Of a stretch of DNA of 34,088 nucleotides, positions 1,056 to 7,716 are shown in pieces. How positions within the stretch are numbered: position 1 is the stretch's first letter; every line of letters starts with the position of its first letter. The notes under the pieces are model-generated. The model made no database searches and was not told the origin of the DNA. It saw only the letters and a program-made list of their open reading frames with translations. The position numbers and the translations under genes are program-made. Source of the DNA: Rhodopila sp. GTDB taxonomy: Bacteria; Pseudomonadota; Alphaproteobacteria; Acetobacterales; Acetobacteraceae. The DNA is taken from positions 1 to 34,088 of the forward strand of contig JARLIN010000012.1 of NCBI GenBank assembly GCA_031291715.1, in the 5' to 3' direction.

Positions 1056-1343
1056 GTGTCTTCTCCAGTTGTCTCGCGTTATTTCCCGATGTCGAAAGAG
1101 TCTCGGTTCGGGTCATCGCCTCTGACTGAACCGGGTGGTTCCGATCCAGTTGGCGACACGGAAAATGCATCGGCAGCACATGTCTCTCGGTGACCTCAGT
1201 CACGTTTCATGTCGATTGCTCAAAATCTTTGTCCGAAACGGATTTCCACCAGGCCTTGTGTCCACGGTCACTTCCGCCTCCCCCATCAATTGGCACTGAC
1301 GCGTTCGACAGCGATCCTGCTGCGACGACCAGGGAGCGTGACG

Positions 1344-3578
1344 ATGGATGCAGTTTCACATGAGGGCCAACAGGCCGGAATAAGGCCGGTTGATCCCAGC
1401 CAGGTGTCGACCCCAGGCGGCGCGGTGGCGATCCAGATCCGCCTGATGGCAATCGCGGCCGCCGCCCGTTTCCACGGCGTCGAACTCGAACGCAACGATC
1501 TGCGTTGTCCCACGGACGAGATACCGTCGCCGGCAGCCCTGACAGACTGGCTGCGTTCGAGCGGCCTTTGGGCCAAAGCCGTGAACCTCCCGTGGAAGCC
1601 ACTGACCGGTCTCGACCTCACCGCGCCCGTCGTTCTGCTGCTGACGGATGGCAGCGCCGTTCTCCTGGTCGCCAACGACAAGAAACGCGGCCTGGTCTGG
1701 ATCCGGCACTCCCGCCTCGCTCCGGCCGATCCGCCCGTGGCCCTGGACGAAACCCAGATGTCCAGGATCTGGAGCGGACAAGCCATCCTGATGCGCGCGA
1801 AGCGCACCGCCGCAAGCGAAGACGCCCCCTTTTCCCTGGCCTGGGTCGCCGAACTTGTGTGGATGGAACGGCACGCGATGCGCGACGTCGGCCTGGCCTC
1901 GATCGTGCTGAGCATCCTGACCGTCCTGCCCGCGCTGATGGTCATGACCGTCATCGATCAGGTCGTAACCCACCAGAGCCTGTCCACCCTCGTGCTGATC
2001 TCGCTGCTGATCGGCACTGCGATGCTGTCCGAAACACTGCTCGGCTATGCCCGCCGCCAATTGATCCTCGTGGTCGGCGCTCGGGTGGATGCAAAGTTGA
2101 ACCTGCACGTATTTCAACGGCTGCTTCGGCTGCCGCTGGATTATTTCGAACACAACCAGGCTGGCTACATCTGGTCGATGACCGGCCTGCAGATCACGAA
2201 GATCCGGGAGTTCCTGACCGGCAAGCTGCTGACCACGATGCTGGACCTGGTCACGTTGATCGTACTGCTACCGATCCTGTTTTTCCTCCAGCCCGTGCTT
2301 TCGTGGATGGTGCTGCTCTGCGCCGGCCTGATCGCCGGCATCATCGTGGCATTCATGAAGCCCATGAGCCGGCGCGTGAAGCGCTTCATCGATGCTGAAA
2401 CGGCGAAGTCCAGCGTCATGGTCGAAACGCTGCACGGTATCCGCACCGTGAAATCCCTCGCACTGGAGCCCCAACAAAAGGATCGCTGGGACGCACGCGC
2501 TGCCGAAGCCACACAGGCGAAAGTCGCCGCCGGCCGGCTGGCCAACCTGCCGCAAATGATCATCAATCCGATCGAAGGCTTCATGCAGCGCGGCGTGCTG
2601 CTGGTCGGCGCCTACATCGCGCTCACCGATCCCGGAACGGTCGCCGTCGGCGGCCTGGTCGCGTTCATGATGCTGAGTGCCCGTGTCGCCCAGCCTCTGG
2701 CAAGTCTGGCCAAGCTGATGGAAGACATCGGTGAAGTCCGCACCGCGACCGCCCTGGCCGCGTCGGTGCTGAACCAGCGTCCTGAATCGGCGGATCCGGC
2801 CGCAGGCATCCGTCCTCGCTTCCAGGGCGCGATTTCGTTCCGTAAAGTCGCCTACAGCTACCCCAACGCCACCGCACCCGCACTCGATCAGATCAGCTTC
2901 GGGATCGCGCCCGGAACGGTACTGGGTGTGGTTGGCCGCAGCGGTTCTGGCAAGTCCACAGTCACGCGCCTGCTGCAGGGTATCAGCCGTGACTACAAAG
3001 GTATCGTCAGTATCGATGGGATCGATTTGCGGGACATCAACCTGGCGCATCTGCGGCGCAACCTGGGTGTCGTGCTGCAAGAGAACTTCCTGTTCCGCGG
3101 CACGATCTCGGACAACATTCTCGCCGGCCGTCCGGGCCTGACCCTGTCAGACGCGGTGCGCGCCGCGCGTCTTGCCGGCGCGGCGGAGTTCATCGAGCGC
3201 CTGCCGAACGGCTACGAAACGATGATCGAAGAAGGCTCGCCGAACTTGTCAGGGGGTCAGCGGCAGCGGCTGGCGATCGCCCGCGCCTTGGTTCACGACC
3301 CGCGCATCCTGATCCTGGATGAAGCCACCAGCGCGCTCGACCCCGAAAGCGAGGCTTTGGTGAATGCCAACCTGGCGCAGATGGCCCGCGGCCGCACCAT
3401 GGTCATCGTCTCCCACCGGCTGTCTTCCCTCACCGATTGCGACGCGATCCTCGTGCTCGATCAAGGGCGCGTCCTGGATGTCGGGCCCCACAGCGAACTC
3501 ATCACCCGCTGCCCGACCTATCAGCAGCTCTGGCACCAGCAGAACCGCCACATGCTCACCGCTCAACAGGGAGTTTGA
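1344..3578 (+). CDS. Type I secretion system permease/ATPase with N-terminal C39-like (non-catalytic) domain
   Basis: ABC exporter fold; Walker A GRSGSGKST, signature LSGGQRQRLAIARAL, Walker B ILILDEATSALD; N-terminal ~130 aa resembles HlyB-type C39-like domain without an evident catalytic Cys; ATG at 1344 preceded by agggag (the ORF track start at 1209 is likely too long). Confidence 0.93.
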   Translation: MDAVSHEGQQAGIRPVDPSQVSTPGGAVAIQIRLMAIAAAARFHGVELERNDLRCPTDEIPSPAALTDWLRSSGLWAKAVNLPWKPLTGLDLTAPVVLLLTDGSAVLLVANDKKRGLVWIRHSRLAPADPPVALDETQMSRIWSGQAILMRAKRTAASEDAPFSLAWVAELVWMERHAMRDVGLASIVLSILTVLPALMVMTVIDQVVTHQSLSTLVLISLLIGTAMLSETLLGYARRQLILVVGARVDAKLNLHVFQRLLRLPLDYFEHNQAGYIWSMTGLQITKIREFLTGKLLTTMLDLVTLIVLLPILFFLQPVLSWMVLLCAGLIAGIIVAFMKPMSRRVKRFIDAETAKSSVMVETLHGIRTVKSLALEPQQKDRWDARAAEATQAKVAAGRLANLPQMIINPIEGFMQRGVLLVGAYIALTDPGTVAVGGLVAFMMLSARVAQPLASLAKLMEDIGEVRTATALAASVLNQRPESADPAAGIRPRFQGAISFRKVAYSYPNATAPALDQISFGIAPGTVLGVVGRSGSGKSTVTRLLQGISRDYKGIVSIDGIDLRDINLAHLRRNLGVVLQENFLFRGTISDNILAGRPGLTLSDAVRAARLAGAAEFIERLPNGYETMIEEGSPNLSGGQRQRLAIARALVHDPRILILDEATSALDPESEALVNANLAQMARGRTMVIVSHRLSSLTDCDAILVLDQGRVLDVGPHSELITRCPTYQQLWHQQNRHMLTAQQGV

Positions 3579-3581
3579 ACC

Positions 3582-4964
3582 ATGTCCGTCACCACACTCG
3601 CCGCGCCCCCCGACAACACACGGGCTTTGCTGGAATTCCAGTCACCGACCGCGGCGGTCATCGCGGATCGAATCCCGGTTAGCGGACGCGTAACGATCTG
3701 GGTCATCGCCGCGGCGATCCTGTCGTCCATCGGGATCATGGGGTGCTACCCGGTTGATCGTGTCGTCGCCGCCCCCGGCAAGGTCGTCGCAAAGATACCG
3801 AACATGGTCGTGCAGCCGCTGGATACCTCGATCATCCGTCAGATCGATGTCCACGAGGGCGAAGTGGTGCACGCCGGCGACCGGCTGGCGATGCTCGACC
3901 CGACATTCGCTGCGGCGGATGCCGGTTCGCTCGATACGCAGGTGGCCAGCCTGCAAGCCGAAGTCGATCGGCTGGACGCCGAAGCGGAAGGCCGATCCTA
4001 CCTTGGGAACGGCAGTCCCCCGAGCCAGTTGCAGGCGATGATCTTCGCCCAGAGGCACGCCGAAAGGACGGCGAAACTCGAAACCTACCGCCAGCGTATC
4101 GACAGCGCGAAGGCCAAGGTTGCCCAGACCGAGACCGACATCGCGAGCTACGCCGAGGAATTCAGGGTCGCCCAGACGAAAGAGGGCATGCGCAAGCAGC
4201 TCGAGCAGATGCAGGTCGGCAGCAGACTGAACACGCTGGATGCCGGCGCACAGCGGGCCGAGATCAACCGGTCCCTGCAGGCAGCCTTCGCCAATAACGC
4301 GGCGGCGAAAAGCGACCTGGACGGGCTGATCGCCGAACGCGACGCCTATGTGCAGCAAATCAAGGGCGAGACGGCGCAGCAACTGACGGAACAGGGACGC
4401 AAGCTGTCCGACGCCCTTGAGCAGCAGAACAAGGCACGTCTCCGTCGAAATCTGGTTGACCTTCGCGCCGACCGGGACGCGGTCGTCCTGAGCGTGGCGA
4501 AGGTCTCGGTAGGTTCGGTTGTCCAGTCCGGCGACGAGCTGATCACGCTGGTCCCGACCGACGCGCCGTTGGAGATCGAGGCCAGCATCCCTGCCCGCGA
4601 CGCGGGCTTCGTTCAGGCCGGCAACCCGGCGGTGATCAAGTTCGACACGTTCCCCTATACGACCTATGGCTATGCGACCGGCACGCTGAACACCGTCAGC
4701 GCCGACAGCTTCTCTGATGCGCGGAACGGCCGCGAGCGTCCGAGCCGGCCGCCCATATCCCAGCCGGAGGCGAACGGCGGAGCGACATTCTTCCGTGCCG
4801 GCCTGTCGCTGGATGAGATGAAGCTGCACAACCTGCCGGCCGGGTTCCACATGACCCCAGGCATGCCGGTGACGGCGGACATCAAGGTTGGGCGGCGGAC
4901 GGTGCTGGCCTATCTGATGTCGCGCGTGGTCCCCACCCTGACGGAAGGGATGCGCGAACCATGA
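3582..4964 (+). CDS. HlyD family type I secretion membrane fusion protein
   Basis: Starts 3 nt after the ABC transporter stop; one N-terminal TM, lipoyl/barrel motif (VVAAPGKVVAK...VQPLDTSIIRQIDVHEGEVVHAGDRLAMLDPT), coiled coil, C-terminal PGMPVTADIKVGRRTVLAYLMSRV. Confidence 0.93.
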   Translation: MSVTTLAAPPDNTRALLEFQSPTAAVIADRIPVSGRVTIWVIAAAILSSIGIMGCYPVDRVVAAPGKVVAKIPNMVVQPLDTSIIRQIDVHEGEVVHAGDRLAMLDPTFAAADAGSLDTQVASLQAEVDRLDAEAEGRSYLGNGSPPSQLQAMIFAQRHAERTAKLETYRQRIDSAKAKVAQTETDIASYAEEFRVAQTKEGMRKQLEQMQVGSRLNTLDAGAQRAEINRSLQAAFANNAAAKSDLDGLIAERDAYVQQIKGETAQQLTEQGRKLSDALEQQNKARLRRNLVDLRADRDAVVLSVAKVSVGSVVQSGDELITLVPTDAPLEIEASIPARDAGFVQAGNPAVIKFDTFPYTTYGYATGTLNTVSADSFSDARNGRERPSRPPISQPEANGGATFFRAGLSLDEMKLHNLPAGFHMTPGMPVTADIKVGRRTVLAYLMSRVVPTLTEGMREP

Positions 4965-4971
4965 GCCGACG

Positions 4972-5014
4972 ATGCGGGACGGGATCGCGGTTACACGCTG
5001 GCCCCGTCCCGCAT
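4972..5014. terminator. Perfect 12-bp inverted repeat between convergent hlyD-like and cyclase genes; possible bidirectional terminator
   Basis: ATGCGGGACGGG (4972-4983) / CCCGTCCCGCAT (5003-5014), spanning the cyclase stop codon at 4991-4993; no T tract, so terminator function is uncertain. Confidence 0.4.
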
Positions 5015-6712
5015 AGCTACAAATTCCTTCAACTGCCTTACCATCTCGATCGGATGCACCAGCAGCGGTTCACTGCGCCCCCGCAACGTGGTTTCTCGTC
5101 CCGGCAGTGCGTCCGGCGACAGACCGGCGATCCTCCAGACATCGTGTGATATCACGGCCTCGCAGCCAAAATGTTTGCACGATCCTTCGAGGCGGGCGGC
5201 GACGTTCGCGGCGTCACCCAGGGTGGTAAAGGTCCGCATCGCGCCGTATCCGATTTCTCCCACAACCGCCGAACCGCAATGCACGCCGACGCCGAACCTG
5301 ATCTCTTCCCCGGTTTCGGCAAGCAGCACGCGATTGAGGTTTTCGACGTTGTGCCCAATCGCGATCAGCGCCGAGAGCGCCTGACGGCAGGCCTCCGTCG
5401 ATCCGCATCCAAGCCCGAATGTCGCCATCAGCCCATCGCCCAGGAAGTGGCTGACACGTCCGCCGTTTGCGTCCACCGCCGCGCCGGCCGCGGTGACGAA
5501 GCGATCCACGATGAAAACCGCGTCGAACGGCAGCCGCGTTTCGATCAGGCGAGTTGAATCCCGCATATCCACCATCAGGACGACGATAAACCGCTCCTCA
5601 CCCGGCATCGGCCATTCCCGGCGGCGCAGGGCCGCCAGCGGCCAGTCCGCCGGCAACAGCGGCACCACACTGATGTCGCCCATCGGCCGCAACTGGCAGG
5701 CCAGCCGCACCACGGGCTCCGCTGCGATCCGACGCAGTACGGCCTGCTCGCCAGGTAACGGGGGCGGAATGCGGCCCGTACCGGCGATGACACGGATGCG
5801 GCAGGTGGAGCAGCGACCACGGCCGCCGCAGATGCTGGCGTGCGGGATACGCGCGCTCCGGCTCGCCTCCAGCACGCTGAAGCCGATCGGCACACGGACC
5901 GAACGGCCGTTCGGGTAGGTCACGCGGATCGCCGTGCCCCGCCATTCCCGCCATGCGCGAACAAGGCGGGCCAGCAGCACGAAGGCAAGAAGGGCCGCTG
6001 CCGTCCACAGGCTCCGATCGCGCCAAAGCACCAGTTGTTGGTTGTGCGGCGGTGTGCCGATCTGCCAGGGATTGAGGTTCGCCGCCCGCCAGGCCGGGTC
6101 CTGTGCCAGGCTCAGCATCGTCCGACCGCCCTGGAAGAAGCCCAGCAAAGCCAGGACCGGCAGCAGGATCGCCGAGCAGAACAGATACGGCATCCATCGG
6201 GTGAACATCGGCTTCAGCCGCAGCCACTGGTAAAGGCCGATGCAGCCATGGATCCAGGCGACGATCAGCACCGACACCTGAAGCACCCCGAGGTGCGGCG
6301 CGCTGACCCAGAAGGAGTATAATTCCTGCGCATAGCCTTTCTCGGTGGCGTACACAGCCAATGAGATTCGCGTGACGAACAGATGGTTCATCAGCAGAAA
6401 CGGGATGCTCAGTCCGAGCACAAGTTGTACCACTTCGGTCACGGTCCAACCAAAGTGCCGTCGCTCATAGAAGGCCCACAGTCCCAGCAGATAATGCGTC
6501 GTAAGCGCGCTGTAGAGGACAGCGGTCCCTATAACGCCCTGCCAGACCCACTTCTGCACGACCATGCCGGCTTCCATCGCTGGGATGGAGATGTTGCCAA
6601 GCGAATGATTCAGAAGGTGACTCGTAACATAGTAAAACAGCGTCAGGCCGGTGACGAGCCGCAGCTTTCGCAGCCATAGCGGTTTCGCCCGGACGTGAGC
6701 CGAACCCGTCAT
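4991..6712 (-). CDS. Membrane class III adenylate/guanylate cyclase with His-rich multi-TM (SDH/heme-b-like) anchor and internal [2Fe-2S] ferredoxin domain
   Basis: N-terminal six or so TM helices with His in TSHLLNHS, TTHYLLGLW, LLMNHLF, AWIHGCIGLYQW; ferredoxin motif CGGRGRCSTCRIRV...LACQL; cyclase domain VVLMVDMRDST, FLGDGLMATFG, FTTLGDAANVAARLEG. Confidence 0.9.
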   Translation of the reverse strand: MTGSAHVRAKPLWLRKLRLVTGLTLFYYVTSHLLNHSLGNISIPAMEAGMVVQKWVWQGVIGTAVLYSALTTHYLLGLWAFYERRHFGWTVTEVVQLVLGLSIPFLLMNHLFVTRISLAVYATEKGYAQELYSFWVSAPHLGVLQVSVLIVAWIHGCIGLYQWLRLKPMFTRWMPYLFCSAILLPVLALLGFFQGGRTMLSLAQDPAWRAANLNPWQIGTPPHNQQLVLWRDRSLWTAAALLAFVLLARLVRAWREWRGTAIRVTYPNGRSVRVPIGFSVLEASRSARIPHASICGGRGRCSTCRIRVIAGTGRIPPPLPGEQAVLRRIAAEPVVRLACQLRPMGDISVVPLLPADWPLAALRRREWPMPGEERFIVVLMVDMRDSTRLIETRLPFDAVFIVDRFVTAAGAAVDANGGRVSHFLGDGLMATFGLGCGSTEACRQALSALIAIGHNVENLNRVLLAETGEEIRFGVGVHCGSAVVGEIGYGAMRTFTTLGDAANVAARLEGSCKHFGCEAVISHDVWRIAGLSPDALPGRETTLRGRSEPLLVHPIEMVRQLKEFVAMRDGASV

Positions 6713-6736
6713 GCGATCAACGGCCGGTCATCGGCG

Positions 6737-7432
6737 TCAGTTCAGCGACGGCAGCGCCTGGGCGTTCACAATGACCATGCGGCCGTTGTCCTTGCCCAGT
6801 ACACCATCCTCCTCCCATTGGCGTATCTGCCGGTTCACCTTTTCCCGAGATGCGCCAACGAGGGTGCTGATATCCTTCTGGGACAGCCTGACCTCGATGC
6901 GCGTGCCGCTCCGAACCGGAACGCCGTAGTCGTTTCCTAACCGGACCAGAAGCCGACCCAGCCGGGTTGGCAGGTCGAGTAGCGCCATATCCTCCAGCAT
7001 TCCGTTCGCCCGTCGCAGACGGCGGCTCAGAAGCGCCATCAGGTGCAGGCAAAGCTCGCTGTTAGACCGTAACATATGCAGGAACTGACCGCGTTCGATA
7101 AGCAGAAGGACACAGTCCTCTTGCGCGGTCACATCAGCGCTGCACGGTTCCCCATCCAACAGCGACAGCTCGCCAAGCACCTCGCCGGTGCCGAGAACGG
7201 TGAGCGTGACCTCCTTTCCGTCCTCCGAGATGACGCTGATCCGCACCCGGCCGGACATGATCACCATCATGCCGCCATTGGGATCGCCGCGCCGAAGGAT
7301 GATCGCACCACGCGAAATCCACCGCACGACCGTCCGGGCCACAATGGCATCGAGATCGTCCGGCCTCAGCGCCTGAAAAAGCTGTGTCTGGGCAAGCGCC
7401 ACACGCCGCGTGGCAGCATCTATCGTTTTCAT
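6737..7432 (-). CDS. Crp/Fnr family transcriptional regulator
   Basis: Cyclic-nucleotide-binding fold (GEVLGELSLLDGEPCSADVTA) plus HTH (LSQKDISTLVGASREKVNRQIRQWEEDGVL); likely start MKTIDAATRR at 7432; ends 24 bp before the cyclase ORF on the same strand. Confidence 0.92.
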   Translation of the reverse strand: MKTIDAATRRVALAQTQLFQALRPDDLDAIVARTVVRWISRGAIILRRGDPNGGMMVIMSGRVRISVISEDGKEVTLTVLGTGEVLGELSLLDGEPCSADVTAQEDCVLLLIERGQFLHMLRSNSELCLHLMALLSRRLRRANGMLEDMALLDLPTRLGRLLVRLGNDYGVPVRSGTRIEVRLSQKDISTLVGASREKVNRQIRQWEEDGVLGKDNGRMVIVNAQALPSLN

Positions 7433-7716
7433 GGAACAACAGTCCCCGTCGAAGATCCCGTTCGGATCATTGATGGGCCAAGCGGCCGGCCATGGGAAGC
7501 GTTGCAAGCGGTTACTATCGCAAGTGTGTCGTACCTATCGGCGATGAGCTTGGTACGTGGCTGCCCCGCCACTCTCGTGACCCGGCGACAGTCCGGGGGC
7601 TTTCGGCTCCCAATCGCACCGGCCGGCCGGCGCGGAGGCAATCCGCCGCTGGGTGTCGGGATGGACTTTCCTCACGCTTCCGGACAAAGTCTTTGCAAGA
7701 ACCAGGGAGAACGACC

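Follow-up and report, generated by a model that had tools for sequence, protein, structure and literature searches.

The locus described here raises the question of whether a redox-sensing cyclase and the Crp-family regulator encoded beside it form one signalling unit and, if so, whether the regulator reads the product of the cyclase in the standard way. The closest reference, CyaC of Sinorhizobium meliloti, is a model for quinone-controlled cAMP synthesis. How its signal stays apart from those of the dozens of cyclases present in the same cell is a matter for which physical complexes of CyaC, Clr and CycR are one proposal. Results of our analysis make it probable, at roughly 0.7, that the two genes of the Rhodopila locus form a redox-signalling module with a CyaC-type protein at its core and an output that acts on a dedicated Crp.

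Architecture of the locus and of its cyclase

Both genes are on the reverse strand of the window (the whole stretch of 34,088 nucleotides that was analysed). The regulator gene, crp (6737-7432, 231 aa, ATG at 7432), is located 5' of the gene of the CyaC-type cyclase (4991-6712, 573 aa, ATG start) with 24 bp between them, and a check of the open reading frames bore out both the gene positions and the gap given in the initial annotation. In most Rhodopila genomes examined the gap between the two genes is about -1 to 24 nt. Such short distances make the proposed co-transcription of the cyclase gene and crp likely in Rhodopila, but the proposal does not extend to those members of the family in which the gene pair is divergent or convergent. 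No sigma-70 consensus promoter was found between the cyclase gene and crp or upstream. Alignment of six Rhodopila upstream regions revealed a conserved block 5' of crp (7470-7525, reverse strand; CTTCCCAT...GCTTGNCCCATCAAT and GATAGT), which is a candidate promoter/operator. In several of the six genomes this block contains a TTGA-N4-TCAA palindrome. The CRP box TGTGA-N6-TCACA has six matches across the window at two mismatches, which is below chance. Directly downstream of the cyclase gene, on the opposite strand, there is a pair of ABC transporter (ABC_membrane/ABC_tran) and HlyD-type genes (1209-4964) of type I secretion-like character.

The N-terminal part of the cyclase (residues 12-258; 5939-6679, reverse strand) is predicted to be a six-helix membrane anchor. 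Its AlphaFold model, obtained with a 59-row alignment from which four plasmid-record rows were left out, comprises six long helices (mean pLDDT 93.9), with H32 and H36 embedded in TM1, H73 in TM2, H110 in TM3 and H155 in TM4. Among 205 full-length homologs, H73, H110 and H155 are present in all, H32 in 204 (one gap) and H36 in 200. The helix-embedded His residues pointed out earlier in the anchor are real, and four of them (H32, H73, H110 and H155) are the sole invariant His residues of the 63-row anchor alignment. The top PDB structure matches of the model are 2bs4_C and 1qlb_C, i.e., subunit C of Wolinella succinogenes quinol:fumarate reductase (QFR), with a Foldseek probability of 1.00 and TM values of 0.58-0.60, but with weak E-values of 0.1-0.2; the dihaem anchor of Desulfovibrio gigas QFR is the structure match of rank 10 (probability 0.96). 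Independently of the Foldseek match, the sequence profile of the anchor matches one PDB chain, SdhC 6lum_C (E 0.011), in an alignment that covers helices I-II and superimposes their His residues. Taken alone, the first 260 residues of the window protein gave no curated family match, and Sdh_cyt was matched weakly by two of the 63 anchor homologs. The fold of a dihaem fumarate reductase anchor, predicted together with the four invariant His residues, supports the assignment of this part of the protein as a putative CyaC-like redox-sensing anchor of the two-haem type.

The anchor is followed by a predicted [2Fe-2S] ferredoxin-like domain (residues 261-351; 5660-5932, reverse strand), in which residues 268-343 match Pfam Fer2 (E 1e-8) and for which the best NCBIfam match is NqrF. 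The predicted cluster ligands are C295, C301, C304 and C339; three of them are found in all 205 full-length homologs, and C304 in 204, with a single Ser in its place. In these alignments the conservation of the cluster Cys and of the anchor His residues is far beyond chance. While the initial annotation was right in recognising a [2Fe-2S] motif, its plant-type label was rejected: the spacing C-X5-C-X2-C-X34-C fits the adrenodoxin/NqrF type better than the classical plant type, which is C-X4-C-X2-C. A limited literature search returned no paper on cyclases with ferredoxin domains.

The C-terminal part of the protein was identified with the use of Pfam, PDB homologs and residue tables as a class III cyclase domain (residues 371-558; 5039-5602, reverse strand), in agreement with the earlier reading; the Guanylate_cyc match covers residues 376-511 (E 8e-8). 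Its catalytic set is kept, namely, the metal-binding D382 and D426, the transition-state residues N503 and R507, and the base-site T496. Where CyaC of S. meliloti has its adenine-binding Lys, K410, the window protein has His422 (codon at 5447-5449, reverse strand). In the 205 homologs this position is occupied by Lys (87), Gln (96), His (10), Asn (2), Ser, Ala, Gly or Val (9) or a gap (1), the number for Gln being inflated because 80 loci were picked for similarity to the window protein. The clade of the window protein, referred to here as the T497 clade, has 13 members and is distinguished by Thr497, as opposed to Ala elsewhere, and by Asp403, as opposed to Asn elsewhere; in this clade, His or Asn at position 422 occurs together with Thr at 497. 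Between Rhodopila species, dN/dS is about 0.1-0.3 in the anchor, ferredoxin and cyclase domains alike, which indicates that the protein is under constraint (purifying selection).

Of 387 alphaproteobacterial genomes sampled, 122 (~30%) contain relatives of the cyclase at E <= 1e-75, nearly all of full length; at E <= 1e-60, relatives were found in 28 of 398 genomes of Acetobacteraceae. An ortholog is present in Rhodopila globiformis DSM 161, and relatives are also encoded by plasmids of Rhizobium, Azospirillum, Cupriavidus and Burkholderia. Such a spread across the class genomes and plasmids indicates that the architecture is ordinary for Alphaproteobacteria. The union of receptor, putative Fe-S relay domain and generator in one chain, on which the initial annotation had laid weight, is the known architecture of CyaC and not a new one. 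CyaC is a six-helix, dihaem-b, quinone-responsive adenylate cyclase, in which Lys410 and Thr484 belong to the ATP site, and Asn491 and Arg495 stabilise the transition state (PMC10463352). Its layout was compared with that of the Rhodopila protein via published residue numbers: in the window protein and most homologs the distances from the Lys position to T, N and R (74/81/85) are equal to those of the published K410/T484/N491/R495. For relatives with a start shortly ahead of TM1, counting gives position 410 for the Lys only when the ferredoxin domain is present, and, as judged from this numbering, CyaC almost certainly has the same Fer2 domain. CyaC is reportedly described in the 2019 work of Wissig et al. 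as having a binuclear Fe-S cluster and a tetra-His signature.

Linkage of the cyclase to one clade of Crp proteins

The regulator encoded upstream of the cyclase gene contains a cNMP_binding domain (E 6e-25) and an HTH_Crp_2 domain (E 2e-14) of Pfam, and its closest relatives of solved structure are Mycobacterium tuberculosis CRP and S. meliloti Clr. Of its previous Crp/Fnr label, the Crp half is upheld by these domains. An Fnr-type identity was rejected, since family matches point to Crp and none of the Fnr assignments reaches its cut-off.

Besides the cyclase gene, crp is the only widely recurring gene of the neighbourhoods compared, being found in at least 16 of 21 from Acetobacteraceae. 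Its position with respect to the cyclase gene takes four forms. In Rhodopila and in relatives belonging to groups g68 and g133, crp precedes the cyclase gene on one strand with it; in G002 it shares the strand but follows the cyclase gene; in G156 the two genes converge, and in the group with Gln-type cyclases they diverge. The three T497-clade genomes that do not have the two genes adjacent retain a Crp ortholog, which in two of them is encoded by the same contig. In the Crp tree, all partners of the cyclase but one (L156) are in one clade of moderate support (SH-aLRT 92). The conservation of this neighbour extends well beyond the Rhodopila genome, and the finding of the same Crp clade in several genera and in four arrangements supports a functional link between the cyclase and Crp; co-occurrence across genomes had been put forward as a check in the initial annotation. 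The new part is this pairing: a cyclase lineage of Acetobacteraceae stays with one Crp clade.

The presence of crp nearby differs between the types of the cyclase. A Crp-like gene is located within 1.5 kb of none of the 87 Lys-type cyclases, as compared to 10 of the 12 His/Asn-type ones. The Lys is likewise missing from the Q-type cyclases found in Bradyrhizobium and Methylobacterium, yet these almost never have a Crp gene nearby. In a phylogeny-controlled comparison of Lys loss and Crp linkage, two pairs only were informative, both of which agreed with the expectation, and the test, underpowered because of too few independent contrasts, did not reach significance; the association appears to go back to few independent origins.

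An independent pairing of a CyaC-type cyclase with a divergent Crp of another subfamily was found in Azospirillum sp. TSH58 (L125) and at loci L021, L026, L256 and L257. The cyclases of this group have Ser, Ala or Gly at the Lys position and Met or Gln at the Thr position. At loci L262, L263 and L165, the CyaC-like gene adjoins a gene encoding a cNMP-domain protein in which no HTH can be recognised by alignment, and in these cyclases the transition-state Asn is replaced by Ser in two cases and the Arg by Leu in one. The Crp-linked Gln-type cyclases of L175 and L177 have His in place of the transition-state Asn and are perhaps catalytically altered. At L167, L168 and L169 (G222, G125 and G299), where crp is not adjacent, the genes of a Tll0287-like/HAMP protein and a Ser/Thr kinase flank the CyaC-like gene in divergent orientation. 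Rhodopila genomes also contain a second cyclase-Crp pair, composed of a class III cyclase frame of 637-737 aa and a convergent crp gene (G029:C215:404-1722, G010:C41:28089-29391, G008:C86:13748-15041, G024:C109:103190-104501 and G006:C155:87448-88759). The Crp of the second pair is 38-39% identical to the window Crp.

Nucleotide-binding residues and the proposed step from cyclase to Crp

Nucleotide contacts of Clr are made by R95 and S96 to the sugar-phosphate and by T140 and T141 to the adenine amine (PMC10127613). The alignment of the window Crp to Clr places Cys97 (codon at 7142-7144, reverse strand) at the position of this phosphate-binding Arg (R82 of Escherichia coli CRP), and Ala142-Asn143 (7004-7009, reverse strand) at the positions of Thr140-Thr141. 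While the Gly-Glu of the pocket and Ser98 are kept, the Arg-Ser phosphate pair is absent from the window Crp, which has Cys97-Ser98 instead, and so are the Thr/Ser base contacts of helix C of cyclic nucleotide receptors. At position 97, the 13 partners of T497-clade cyclases have Cys, Val, Ser or Ile without exception, and each of the 16 other family Crps compared, which are not partners of the cyclase, has Arg. At the positions of Clr Thr140/Thr141 the partner Crps have Ala, Ser or Thr followed by Asn. The Crps linked to Gln-type cyclases have kept the Arg, and the Asn is already present in them.

We propose that the quinone/haem redox state of the membrane would be sensed by the dihaem-b, fumarate-reductase-like six-helix anchor and passed, through or alongside the [2Fe-2S] domain placed between anchor and cyclase, to the cyclase dimer, the output of which would control the paired Crp encoded alongside. 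The sensing and relay steps are proposed on the precedent of CyaC, and the Crp step on the linkage and co-divergence of the two proteins. Homology with S. meliloti CyaC suggests that the protein binds haem and the cluster, is controlled by quinone and has cyclase activity. The functional coupling of this redox-sensing cyclase to Crp is well supported. As regards the last step, we tentatively favour local signalling by a cyclase-Crp complex over a freely diffusing pool of cAMP with the standard read-out, because the adenine Lys is gone from the cyclase and the cyclic-phosphate Arg from Crp, and because CyaC and Clr of S. meliloti bind each other in an ATP-dependent manner (PMC10463352). What counts against such a complex is the retained Asp/Asp/Asn/Arg set, which argues for a working cyclase and hence for some diffusible product. 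It may be that the signal stays local or depends on contact, or that another nucleotide carries it. That the cyclase controls its own Crp without the standard cAMP read-out, either through a direct contact gated by redox state or through an unusual nucleotide, the two proteins having drifted from cAMP together, is a possibility to which we give somewhat less than even odds.

In the canonical cascade, the redox state would govern cAMP synthesis, and the co-transcribed Crp would hold cAMP in the ordinary pocket and act on its genes; this reading appears unlikely for the pair. It would agree with the retention of D382, D426, T496, N503 and R507 in the cyclase and of the Gly-Glu and Ser98 in Crp, as well as with the closeness of the latter to two cAMP-binding proteins, M. 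tuberculosis CRP and Clr; moreover, the helix C base contacts of M. tuberculosis CRP are Thr-Asn, so Asn at the second of these positions is found there too. However, the counterpart of Clr Arg95 is replaced in 13 of 13 partner Crps, in which Thr140/Thr141 have also given way to A/S/T-N, and the counterpart of K410 is missing in 13 of 13 T497-clade cyclases, while CyaC K410A/T484A is inactive (PMC10463352). The loss of the phosphate Arg makes the standard capture of cAMP by the window Crp doubtful, and the initial notion that the Crp-like protein reads the product of the cyclase is weakened by the changes in both partners.

Still less likely is a change of the nucleotide itself, i.e., that the cyclase, being without the Lys, produces cGMP or a different cyclic nucleotide, which is read by the diverged Crp. 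The joint change of base-site residues (His/Asn at 422, Thr at 497) may point in this direction, and a cyclase-Crp cluster for cGMP, gcyB-gcyC-cgrA, is described for Rhodospirillum centenum (PMC4681086). Guanylyl cyclases have Glu, however, and not His, Asn or Gln, at the Lys position, and alteration of these base-site residues often merely lowers activity (PMC4215837). Furthermore, a change of base alone fails to explain the loss of Arg from Crp, as this residue contacts the phosphate, which is common to all 3',5'-cyclic nucleotides. An accidental neighbourhood of the cyclase and Crp genes without any functional link is very improbable: although a Crp neighbour is missing from K-type CyaCs and from most of the Q-type ones, and a TetR gene is at that place in S. 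meliloti, the cyclase is accompanied by one and the same Crp clade across several genera and in four arrangements, the other neighbours all changing, and the two partners diverge together.

In the favoured reading, that of a redox-signalling module with a dedicated Crp, this lineage has a private Crp fixed beside the cyclase, and the canonical cAMP residues are lost from both partners. If the pair still signals, it would lend itself naturally to testing whether signalling between a class III cyclase and a Crp protein can be local, insulated or cAMP-free.

Comparison with known systems

With Wolinella FrdC and SdhC, the Rhodopila protein has in common the predicted anchor fold and the helix-embedded His residues. 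Unlike them, its anchor is fused to ferredoxin and cyclase domains and is without dehydrogenase subunits. The gcyB-gcyC-cgrA genes of R. centenum resemble the Rhodopila locus in the clustering of cyclase genes with that of a Crp-family reader; CgrA, however, uses cGMP, and the available part of the source reports no haem/FeS anchor.

The nearest counterpart of the cyclase is CyaC (SMc01818), which shares with it the six-helix anchor of dihaem-b type, the class III domain and the catalytic spacing. The Rhodopila cyclase differs from CyaC in having His422 where the latter has Lys410, while the counterpart of Thr484 is kept as T496. The upstream neighbour differs as well, being crp in Rhodopila and the TetR gene cycR in S. 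meliloti; in ten loci of class homologs that were scanned, no TetR gene was seen upstream. The window Crp, in turn, has the cNMP-binding domain and the Crp HTH in common with Clr and M. tuberculosis CRP, but differs from Clr in having Cys97 in place of the phosphate Arg and Ala-Asn in place of the base-contact Thr-Thr. Finally, whereas Clr is encoded elsewhere from its cyclase, the window crp adjoins the cyclase gene.
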